Shown here: positions 30,575 to 48,517 of the stretch, one piece after another | Position numbering within the stretch: position 1 is the stretch's first letter | How the letters are laid out: each line of letters begins with the position of its first letter | Source: Nocardioides anomalus | GTDB taxonomy: Bacteria > Actinomycetota > Actinomycetes > Propionibacteriales > Nocardioidaceae | DNA length: 64,000 nt | Reading direction: 5' to 3' | NCBI RefSeq assembly: GCF_011046535.1 | Contig: NZ_CP049257.1 | Coordinates: 620,001 to 684,000, forward strand | Notes under the pieces: model-generated | Told to the model about the DNA's origin: nothing | What the model saw: only the letters and a program-made list of their open reading frames with translations | The model's database searches: none | Program-made: the position numbers and the translations under genes

Positions 30575-30661
30575 GGACCCACCCTAGGACGCTGCGGCCG
30601 ACGTCAGGCGGCGCCAGCGGACGTCGGCCGCAGCGCCCTGGGCGTGTGCCACGATGGACGT

Positions 30662-36550: not shown

Positions 36551-37545
36551 CCACCCGGGAGTCGAACGTGCGCGAGATCGTCGTCTTCAGCGGCTCCGGC
36601 CACCGTCCGTTCGCCGCCAAGGTGTGCGAGTCGCTCGGCGTGGAGCTCAGCTCGGTCGAGATCACCCGCTTCAGCAACGACTGCCTCCAGGCCCAGCTGC
36701 AGGCGAACTGCCGCCAGCGCGACGTCTACATCGTCCAGCCGCTCGCCCCGCCCACCCAGGAGCACCTCATGGAGCTGCTCCTCATGCTCGACGCCGCCCG
36801 CGGCGCCTCGGCGGCCCAGATCACCGCCGTCATCCCGTACTACGCCTACGCCCGCTCCGACAAGAAGGACGCCAGCCGCCTGTCCATCGGCGGCCGGCTC
36901 GTCGCGGACATGCTGGTGACCGCCGGAGCGCAGCGGGTGCTGACCATGGAGCTCCACGCCCCGCAGGTCCACGGCTTCTTCTCCATCCCCGTCGACCACC
37001 TCACCGCCCTCGGCATCCTGGCCGAGCACTTCCTCGGTCAGGACCTCTCGAACGCCGTCGTGGTCAGCCCCGACTTCGGCAACGCCAAGACCGCGACCCA
37101 GTTCTCCCGCCTCCTCGGCATCCCCGTCGCCGCCGGCAGCAAGAAGCGCCTCGCCGACGACCGCGTCGTCATCGACGCCATCGTGGGCGATGTCGAGGGC
37201 AAGCGGGCGATCATCCTCGACGACGAGATCGCCACCGGCGGCTCGATCCTCGAGCTCCTGGACCGGCTGGCCGAGCAGGGGTGCGCCTCCGCCAGCGTGG
37301 CGTGCACCCACGGGCTCTTCGTGGGCAAGGCCGTCGAGCGCCTGCGCGGTCACCCGATGATCACCGAGGTCGTCACCACCGACACGGTCCCGGCGCCGAC
37401 CGGGTGGCCGGAGCTGGAGGTGCGGTCCGTCGCGGACCTCTTCGCCGCCGCGATCGAGCGGATCCACCACGGGGAGTCGATCAGCGACCTCTTCGACGGG
37501 GTGGACCCGGCTCTCGGGCCGCCCCAGCCGCGACTGTTCGACTAG
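36547..37545 (+). CDS. prs: Ribose-phosphate pyrophosphokinase family protein
   Basis: 332 residues. It starts GTG 36547 (4-bp overlap with DUF3152; TACAGT upstream). Motifs: RFSNDCLQAQLQANCRQRDVYIVQPL, IPYYAYARSDKKDASRLSIGGRLVADML, and the PRPP loop IILDDEIATGGSILELL. It would make PRPP from ribose-5-phosphate. It sits far from glmU/rplY, where the housekeeping prs is usually found, so it may be a second copy. Confidence 0.87.
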
Positions 37546-37592
37546 GTCTTCTGGTCTGGGTGCTTCGTCTCGTGGTGCGGGCTCTCGGGTCC

Positions 37593-37776
37593 GGCCGCCT
37601 GTGGACTGACCCGGCCTCCGCCGGACCGCAGCCCCCTCACCGAACGCAACCGACGCCGTGTTGCACGCGACTGCTCCCAGCCCCATTACGTCCGGCATGC
37701 GTGCCCCACGCCGCGGGTCTAGCGTTCGGCGAGGGGGCTCCGGTCCGGCGGGGGCCGGGTCAGCCCACAGGCGGCC
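37593..37776. repeat. Long imperfect inverted repeat, 55-bp arms
   Basis: The left arm 37593-37647 and right arm 37722-37776 are reverse complements over 55 bp with four mismatches. They start GGCCGCCTGTGG and end CCGAACGC. The 74-bp centre has no open frame. An RNA from either strand would fold into a very stable hairpin. Confidence 0.85.
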
Positions 37777-37940
37777 TGGTCTGGCGGCGGCACCCTCGCC
37801 TTCGCCTTCACTTGGGTGGGTGGGAGTGAGGTCGAGGTCATTCGCACATGGGGACCGCAGCGTGGTCGCCGAAGGCGGCCGCGCTTTCGTGGGGCGGGGC
37901 GCAGCCTCGCCCTCAGCGCGCCCCTACCAGCCAGACCGGG

Positions 37941-38018
37941 TCCCGCTGTCAAGGACGGACCTCTCGCCGAAGGCCGCCGTCCGCCACGAAGTGGCGCGTA
38001 GCGTCCTTGACAGCGGGA
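37941..38018. repeat. Inverted repeat, 17-bp perfect arms
   Basis: TCCCGCTGTCAAGGACG (37941-37957) is the exact reverse complement of 38002-38018. The 44-bp centre contains a further CGCCAC/GTGGCG hairpin with a GAA loop, so the structure is a compound stem-loop. Confidence 0.85.
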
Positions 38019-38108
38019 GTCGGGGTGGTAAGCGCGCGGCCGCTACGTAATTGGTCCCAGTACGGTCAAGAACCGGCGACGGGCGAGCGAGAAGCCAGGA
38101 CCGTGAGC

Positions 38109-38816
38109 TCAGGACGGCAACGCAGAAGGCGTGGTCCGCACCAGGTCACCGGGGGCCACCCGGCCGTCGGCGGGAGCGATGAGGTCGGTGATGATCGCTC
38201 GCGCGCTGTCCAGCGTCCGGCGTACGTAGTCGCGCACAGCCGCGTCGTCCTCGAGCTCGAGCGCGTACAGCGCTGCGGTCAGGCCCTGGACCACCGAGTC
38301 GTTGATCTCGAGTGCCGCCTGGCGGCGGGTCTCGGCCTCGTGGGCGTCGGCGGCGTGGCGTTCGCGCGCCTGCTCCGCACGGATCCGGTCGGTGATGTCG
38401 ACGCAGGTGCCGCGGAAGCGGAGCGGCGTGCCGGAGTCGTCGGTGAGGACCTGGCCGTTGGTGGAGAGGTAGCGGACCTCGCCGTCGGGGCGGACGATGC
38501 GCTCGACCATCTCGTAGGGCTCGCCGGTGGCGTAGGCGCGCTGGTGGGTGGCCTGGACCGTCTCGCGGTCGTCGGGGTGGACCATCGAGAGGAAGCGCTC
38601 GTAGGTGCCGTCGAAGGACTGCGGCTCGTGGCCGAAGATGCGGTAGAGCTGGTCGGACCACCGGTTGGTGTCGGTGGCGATCTCCCAGTCGTAGTCGCCG
38701 ATGTTGGCCAGCCGCTGGGCGTTGTCGACGCGCGCCTGCAGGTCGCGCAGGGCCTCCTCCGCGACCGTCTTGTCCCGCAGCGCCTGGTCCAGGCGATCCT
38801 GCTGCTCGTCCGCCAC
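38109..38816 (-). CDS. PAS-domain signalling protein without a kinase domain
   Basis: 235 residues from GTG 38816 (CACAGT 6 nt upstream). It has an N-terminal coiled coil ([38 protein letters not shown]), a PAS fold ([22 protein letters not shown]...[13 protein letters not shown]...[19 protein letters not shown]...[12 protein letters not shown]) and a helix pair ([36 protein letters not shown]) like a HisKA_3 dimerisation region. No ATPase domain follows. It may act as a scaffold or sensor for a separate partner. Confidence 0.8.
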
Positions 38817-44213: not shown

Positions 44214-45002
44214 GTGAGCACCACGCTCGACCTGTCCGCGACCAGCCGGGTGCCGTTCACCCGGCTGGTCGCGGTCGAGCTCCGCAAGGCCCGCGACACC
44301 CGCGCCGGGTTCTGGCTGCTGGCGGGCATCCTCGCGATCGTCGTGGTGGTGCTCGGCATCCTCGTCGGGCTCACCCTGGGCTACACCGACCCCGTCGCGC
44401 TCGGCGACTACGTGGCGGTGGCGGCGTACCTGATGTCGTTCCTGCTGCCGTTCCTCGCGATCATGCTGGTGACCAGCGAGTGGAGCCAGCGCTCGGCGCT
44501 GGTCACCTTCAGCCTGGAGCCGCGGCGCTCGCGGGTGGTGCTGGCCAAGCTGGGCGCCGCGCTGCTGCTGACGGTCGCCAACCTCATCGCGGCGCTGGTC
44601 GTCGGGCTGGTCTGCACCCTCGTGTGCGAGCTGGCGCAGCCCGACCTCACCTCGTGGCGGCTCGGGGCCGGTGACGTCGCGGGCTTCCTGGTCACCCAGT
44701 CCCTGGCCATGGTCGGCGGCTTCGCCATCGCCACCCTGCTGCTTAACACCCCGGCCTCGATCGTGCTCTTCGTCGTCTACCGGTTCGTCCTGCCCGGCGT
44801 CTTCGCCGCGCTGTCGGCGCTCAGCGACTGGTTCGGCTCCCTCGCGCCGTGGCTGGACTTCCAGGCCGCGCAGGGCGACATCTACGAGTGGGAGCTGTCC
44901 GGCGCCGAGGCGTGGGGCCATCTGCTGACCTCCGGCGCGCTGTGGCTGGCGCTGCCGCTGGCCGTCGGGCTCTGGCGGGTGCTGCGCGCCGAGGTGAAGT
45001 AG
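44214..45002 (+). CDS. ABC exporter permease subunit (copy 2)
   Basis: 262 residues, six membrane segments, with the same LVAVELRKARDTRAGFWLL and MLVTSEWSQRSALVTFSLEPRRSRVVLAK blocks as its neighbour. GTG 44214 was chosen because the homologous N-terminus begins just after it. Last gene of the exporter operon. Confidence 0.85.
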   Translation: MSTTLDLSATSRVPFTRLVAVELRKARDTRAGFWLLAGILAIVVVVLGILVGLTLGYTDPVALGDYVAVAAYLMSFLLPFLAIMLVTSEWSQRSALVTFSLEPRRSRVVLAKLGAALLLTVANLIAALVVGLVCTLVCELAQPDLTSWRLGAGDVAGFLVTQSLAMVGGFAIATLLLNTPASIVLFVVYRFVLPGVFAALSALSDWFGSLAPWLDFQAAQGDIYEWELSGAEAWGHLLTSGALWLALPLAVGLWRVLRAEVK

Positions 45003-48435: not shown

Positions 48436-48517
48436 TGCCGGAGGCGGGACTTGAACCCGCACGCCCTGGGGCACGGCATCCTAAGTGCCGCGTGTCTGCC
48501 TGTTCCACCACTCCGGC
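48436..48517 (-). tRNA. tRNA-Leu (anticodon TAG)
   Basis: 82 nt. The acceptor 5' GCCGGAG pairs with CTCCGGC plus discriminator A. The anticodon stem-loop is CGGCA-CTTAGGA-TGCCG (anticodon TAG). A long variable arm typical of class II tRNA and the T-arm GCGGG-TTCAAGT-CCCGC are intact. The 3' CCA is not encoded (CCG follows). The HNH remnant ends immediately before its 5' end. Confidence 0.93.

Follow-up and report, generated by a model that had tools for sequence, protein, structure and literature searches.

A 64,000-nt stretch of the Nocardioides anomalus chromosome (contig NZ_CP049257.1, positions 620,001 to 684,000), here called the window and numbered from its first letter, contains a long inverted repeat in the gap between two convergent genes. 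The repeat forms the basal part of H1, a hairpin of 184 nt that is the left module of a non-coding element of about 560 bp; a second composite hairpin, H3, makes up the right end. We read H1 as the left terminal hairpin of a non-autonomous, hairpin-ended transposable element with gene-bearing relatives whose H3-type ends frame a DUF222-HNH gene, and assign this reading a probability of roughly 0.55. By analogy, the element is best read as being laid out like a REP/RAYT system, with an HNH protein replacing the Y1 transposase. In searches of an open-access library, no account of elements of this kind in Nocardioides came up.

The two arms of the repeat (37593–37647 and 37722–37776; inverted-repeat search) pair at 51 of 55 positions across a 74-nt spacer, in agreement with the preliminary description of 55-bp arms with four mismatches and a 74-bp centre. 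Weaker pairing extends the arms inward to 82 nt each at 79%, with a 20-nt spacer. The inverted-repeat score of 43 compares with 17 for the runner-up in the window and with per-run maxima of 13–16 in 10 simulated versions of the window (first-order Markov). The fold of each strand was 13–14 standard deviations below dinucleotide shuffles, with 0 of 200 shuffles equally good. The gap was correctly described as gene-free; it spans exactly the interval between the stop codon of the plus-strand ribose-phosphate pyrophosphokinase gene, prs (37545), and that of a minus-strand PAS-domain gene (38109), and it contains a further hairpin at 37931–38028. The repeat thus stood as described, and the true unit proved larger than the repeat: whole-genome matches and alignment of the copies delimit an element at 37546–38108 on the plus strand, whose outer boundaries are imprecise, to about 10 bp at the left end and tens of bp at the right.

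When 37546–38108 was searched against the complete single-contig genome (5.12 Mb), the matches were grouped into 33 dispersed places, each matching the element partly or wholly; all were retrieved with their flanks and aligned. The preliminary description had suggested an intergenic repeat family or one resembling miniature inverted-repeat transposable elements (MITEs), and this suggestion held up: the copies are many and short, no gene was called inside them, and among their relatives are elements in which inverted hairpin ends enclose a gene. It had also held that a repeat with no second copy and no transcript or covariation would amount to a chance or local duplication; both copies and covariation were found, and the 33 copies together with the Markov simulations rule out that origin. 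Over the core, identity reaches 96.6% between the two most similar copies, with a median of 82%. H1 and H3 of one copy share their nearest neighbour in only 1 of 26 cases, and the pairwise identities of H1 and H3 are uncorrelated (−0.06). From this discordance we conclude that reassortment has taken place between modules 150 bp apart, for which gene conversion is the simplest explanation. The tail is present without H3 in two copies, and one copy lacks both H3 and an optional palindrome, H2.

H1 (37593–37776, minus strand, with a conserved apical part) was analysed in an alignment of 33 distinct copies by folding and covariation. Standard pairs were present on the minus strand in 95.6% of 2302 cells, and 17 of 70 pairs had changed on both sides. 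Neither the observed pairing nor the number of double changes was reached in any of 500 shuffles, and sliding the partners cut pairing to 33–43%. RNAalifold gave 57 pairs on the plus strand, 11 of them with double changes. The minus strand was the better fold in 32 of the 33 copies. Mid-stem blocks are swapped whole, both arms jointly; copy 1738771 has lost pairs because its mid-arms are of two non-matching types, a sign of recombination within H1. The best-conserved stretch of the whole family, CAACCGACGCCGTGTTGCACGCG (37647–37669), lies in the H1 apex (apical part, 37648–37721; neither the arms nor this part is assigned a strand). H1 is therefore a selected structure, and the covariation supports the earlier proposal that the mismatches reflect constraint.

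A very stable fold, covariation and minus-strand pairing that tolerates G-U would also suit a family of structured non-coding RNAs with one gene per copy, H1 being the folded RNA; the preliminary description had listed an uncharacterised structured RNA among its options. A DNA hairpin would show equal covariation, however, and the RNA proposal gained no support elsewhere. There was no Rfam match at the repeat, the sole match in the window at the gathering threshold being a tRNA (48436–48517), and neither a sigma-70-like promoter nor a T-tailed terminator was found in 37400–38300. As the family comprises 33 copies with optional modules, and copy 1738771 joins mid-arms that do not match, we consider an RNA family very improbable.

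No relatives of H1 were found in 57 other related genomes or in 214 other genomes of the genus (two candidates scored per genome). Plasmid and phage collections searched in 'distant' mode gave no match. The exact 23-nt H1 apex occurred 0 times in genome-contig and 0 times in viral-contig collections, where records of this genome were perhaps left out, and none of the 126 retrieved loci that were counted as relatives contained it, even with up to four mismatches allowed. On these searches and apex scans, a plasmid or phage origin was rejected.

The right side of the element is more widespread. H3 (37931–38028, plus strand) has an outer stem (37931–37957 paired with 38002–38028) around a cloverleaf interior (37958–38001, plus strand) of mini-hairpins with GAA and GTA triloops; its core can be written as GTCAAGGAC / GTCCTTGAC enclosing mini-hairpins with GNA triloops. 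The H3 side matched loci in 8 of 214 other genomes of the genus at E ≤ 1e-5 (two candidates scored per genome), the match in genome G226 being a 36-bp stretch adjoining H3. Among the matches listed, the core pattern was present in 19 of 215 genomes of the genus including this one, with the highest number, 30, in genome G113; a reversed control pattern had no match in the genomes listed. Triloops were counted in 75 core copies from retrieved loci, a subset of all pattern matches, of which 51 were distinct and 24 came from this genome. GNA loops made up 106 of the 144 triloop hairpins in the 51 distinct cores and were confined to one strand in every one of them.

In three genomes of sister species (G061, G125 and G175), two H3 cores in inverted orientation, 1.8–3.1 kb apart, enclose a single frame. 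The inverted ends measure 158–164 bp at four such loci (L158, L159, L160 and L161), where a DUF222 frame lies between two inverted palindromes, in the way of the gene in REP/RAYT loci; this arrangement was not found in N. anomalus, in which 26 of the 33 copies possess an H3-type hairpin end. Seven of nine loci with an enclosed frame gave DUF222, most with HNH. The frame at L171 gave a sub-threshold HNH, and that at L174 gave no domain match, although L174 and L160 share 96% identity across 2521 bp. Terminal inverted repeat and gene have diverged jointly, to about 72% DNA identity between L158 and L171. A fourth genome, G146, has a gene-less derivative: three copies of 0.56–0.61 kb have both ends in common with the DUF222 elements and begin 2–3 bp past a stop codon; the ends of one of them (L169) form an inverted repeat of 160 bp at 81%. 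In G113, inverted H3 pairs about 320 bp apart likewise constitute terminal inverted repeats.

As the only gene found inside such ends, DUF222-HNH encodes the likely nuclease of the hairpin ends in sister species. The protein is predicted to combine a ParB/Noc-like DNA-binding fold with HNH; a first structure model (pLDDT 51, from 20 close sequences) was uninformative, and Foldseek alone gave no structural match at E ≤ 0.001. DUF222-HNH could instead be a mere passenger, the palindrome-associated element being mobilised by a single-strand transposase that has escaped notice, whether IS200/IS605, RAYT or another HUH type. Published accounts place RAYT genes between two inverted REPs (PMC2817692), and the replication-aligned orientation and missing target duplication described below would fit single-strand insertion. 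However, PF01797, the Y1 transposase family, was found in 0 of 19 H3-bearing genomes, with none in this genome, while the control responded in 5 of 14. As far as PF01797 detects them, this excludes RAYT and IS200 as the mobiliser, other HUH families lying outside the search, and we regard an unseen transposase as improbable.

The insertion sites share several features. The stop codon lay within 10 bp of the start of the match in 18 of the 22 copies whose upstream gene ends toward the left end. TAG was the stop in 18 of these 22 genes compared to 64 of 312 sampled genes (Fisher, 7e-9), the sample being drawn from 20 genome stretches with 11 genes cut at stretch ends excluded; in the window copy, the TAG of prs (37543–37545, plus strand) adjoins the left end. 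At the right end TAG accounted for 9 of 21 facing stops (p 0.026). The left flanks are TAG-rich; in REP/RAYT systems, the foot of the hairpin bears a GTAG or GTGG guide tetranucleotide. Divergent genes flank 5 of the 33 copies, and co-directional genes flank 13, 7 of these pairs pointing with the element and 6 against it. Twenty-nine of the 33 copies run from H1 to H3 with the replication fork (p 1.1e-5), an alignment with replication like that of IS200/IS605-type elements. Fork direction was assigned from dnaA at 4597431 and a terminus near 2.04–2.2 Mb, taken from the gene strand share, which switches between 2.0 and 2.25 Mb; GC skew in the 20 sampled stretches failed to place the terminus. 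With the terminus set at 2.4 Mb, 28 of 33 copies were aligned with the fork. Transcription is a weaker explanation of orientation than replication. Given this orientation, the strand of H3 that carries the GNA loops is the lagging-strand template.

The same features could belong to a resident structural element selected by the host, such as a bidirectional terminator, insulator or chromosome-organising site, that spreads by gene conversion rather than transposition. Convergent genes flank 15 of the 33 copies, as opposed to 13 of the 78 neighbour pairs in the window, left ends begin at stop codons, modules recombine freely, and both the fork alignment and the conserved H1 apex could reflect function. 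On the other hand, 18 copies lie outside convergent pairs, 5 of the 6 that oppose both neighbouring genes still follow the fork, and the stretch around the window copy lacks a T-tailed terminator. Moreover, the better-folding strand of H1 is the one opposite the upstream gene in 32 of 33 copies, H1 was not found elsewhere in the genus, and H3 ends frame a nuclease gene in other genomes. We therefore think a host element unlikely.

Several results weigh against the transposable-element reading that we prefer. There were no DUF222 matches in this genome, and it has no autonomous copy. DUF222 was detected in 211 of 215 genomes of the genus (10 candidates scored per genome), and co-presence in a genome therefore proves little. 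Inverted-repeat ends were absent at 20 other DUF222 loci in six genomes (L178–L197); the gene spreads without such ends too and could be a passenger. The ParB-like structural match, in a comparison covering listed families only, is within the range typical of a common arrangement for helical domains. Because H1 is without a match outside this genome, the left and right ends here form no inverted pair, and the differing H1 and H3 do not constitute the terminal inverted repeats of a MITE. Target duplication was absent, the longest common word being 6.19 nt in own flanks versus 5.83 nt in swapped flanks (27 copies, with fuzzy ends). Recent movement is not visible among the copies, even in the closest pair. 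The number of further pair types in H1 was unexceptional (38 of 500 shuffles as high), and the excess of plus-strand A-C mismatches, which are G-T on the minus strand, over plus-strand G-T (148 versus 34 cells) is concentrated in a few columns of cells that are not independent. Finally, 12 of 26 gene-bearing elements in G125 followed the fork; with no bias there, fork alignment is no rule of the entire family. The corresponding figure for the G146 derivative was 4 of 5.

If H1 and H3 are the ends of a transposable element, the 3' strand of each end would fold up as a cloverleaf or long hairpin and be recognised in this form by the nuclease; the polarity of the GNA loops in H3 fits this arrangement, as does the better fold of the minus strand of H1 at the left end. 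The DUF222-HNH protein would bind the folded ends and nick the DNA, and movement would proceed via single-stranded DNA, which in this lineage would be the lagging-strand template. Insertion beside stop codons, with the fork and with no target duplication, would fit insertion of the IS200/IS605 type, for which the cited accounts give fork-coupled single-strand insertion as the accepted model, one also proposed for REPINs (PMC3116915, PMC6006769). The DUF222-HNH gene would later have been lost from this genome, and as a result the copies would now be fixed and homogenised by gene conversion.

Compared with known systems, the family resembles REP/REPIN and RAYT, as these are described (PMC2817692, PMC3116915, PMC6006769), in its many-copy extragenic palindromes, its nuclease gene between two inverted palindromes and its gene-less inverted doublets. 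It differs in that the H3 family has no Y1 transposase, the nuclease being HNH, and in that its hairpin ends are about 160 nt long, as against the 21–65 nt given for REPs (PMC6006769). With classical MITEs it has in common short, gene-less, dispersed copies and, in G146, a form that arose when a gene-bearing element lost its interior; in this genome it departs from them in its ends, which are not mutually inverted, its lack of target duplication and its lack of an autonomous copy. The actinobacterial REP13E12 repeats, whose DUF222-HNH is listed as repetitive in Mycobacterium (PMC10589994), belong to the protein family of the gene inside the H3-flanked elements, but inverted ends are lacking at the 20 ordinary DUF222 loci and the N. 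anomalus genome has no DUF222 gene. Streptomyces telomeres and parvovirus terminal hairpins are reported to contain packed palindromes and mini-hairpins with GCA loops closed by sheared G:A on the 3' strand (PMC4513846). Each H3-type end similarly has GNA loops on one strand; H3 occupies internal chromosome sites rather than replicon ends, and the likeness is one of shape only.

It is possible, if doubtful, that these elements constitute a new class, in which a nuclease with a ParB-like helix-turn-helix and HNH would move DNA by recognising large single-stranded cloverleaf ends with GNA triloops, much as with parvovirus or Streptomyces telomere hairpins, and insert it beside stops at the fork, the copies studied here being orphaned, self-homogenising miniatures. 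DUF222-HNH genes, given their presence in 211 of 215 genomes of the genus, are among the commonest unexplained actinobacterial genes. If the protein does mobilise hairpin-ended DNA, the family gains a function, and HNH would fill the role that Y1 transposases have for REP elements. Through its H3 end, the element is related to the gene-bearing elements of sister species, and this relation gives the family a possible job that can be tested. The 33 copies, fork-aligned and with reassorted modules about 150 bp apart, offer a natural system in which to study gene conversion and replication-coupled insertion.

From left to right, the copies consist of a G/T-rich filler, a CTGGG leader, H1, the optional H2, GC-rich mini-hairpins, H3 (26 of 33 copies), the GCGCGCGGCCGC block and a T-poor tail. 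In the window copy the filler, which varies among copies, occupies 37546–37555, and the conserved leader beginning CTGGG occupies 37556–37592. H2 (CTTGTAACG...CGTTACAAG), a palindrome located before the GC-rich hairpin in 21 of 33 copies, is absent from the window copy, in which the short GC-rich hairpin is GCGTGGTCGCCGAAGGCGGCCGCGC (37860–37884). The elements of G113 also have the GCGCGCGGCCGC block (38032–38043 in the window copy) at their ends. The right tail (38044–38108) starts with ACGYRATTG and continues as T-poor variable sequence until the convergent stop. These features lie on the plus strand.

Further observations were made at the DUF222 loci. This genome is one of 4 of 215 in the genus with no DUF222 match, yet it carries the 33 hairpin repeats. 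The ordinary DUF222-HNH genes (L178–L197) are themselves dispersed repeats of about 1.4–1.6 kb, comprising the gene and about 300 bp upstream. An IS110-type transposase frame follows the DUF222 frame within one G125 element (L160:3727–4905). In the right flank of DUF222 elements (L161:4160–4330, L158:4230–4400 and L172:3760–3940), GGTCTCGACA and CTCGACCAGCGG occur in short tandem-like repeats. The gene-less G146 element (L168, L169 and L170) contains operator-like palindromes, GTGAACGAATTTTCGTTCAC and GTGAAAGAAAATTCTCTTTCAC, and the internal palindromes are different in other species. Two further inverted repeats in the window (44236–44274 and 30586–30639), both with a score of 17, are much weaker than the repeat in H1; one has 17-bp perfect arms and a 5-nt loop, the other 20-bp arms.
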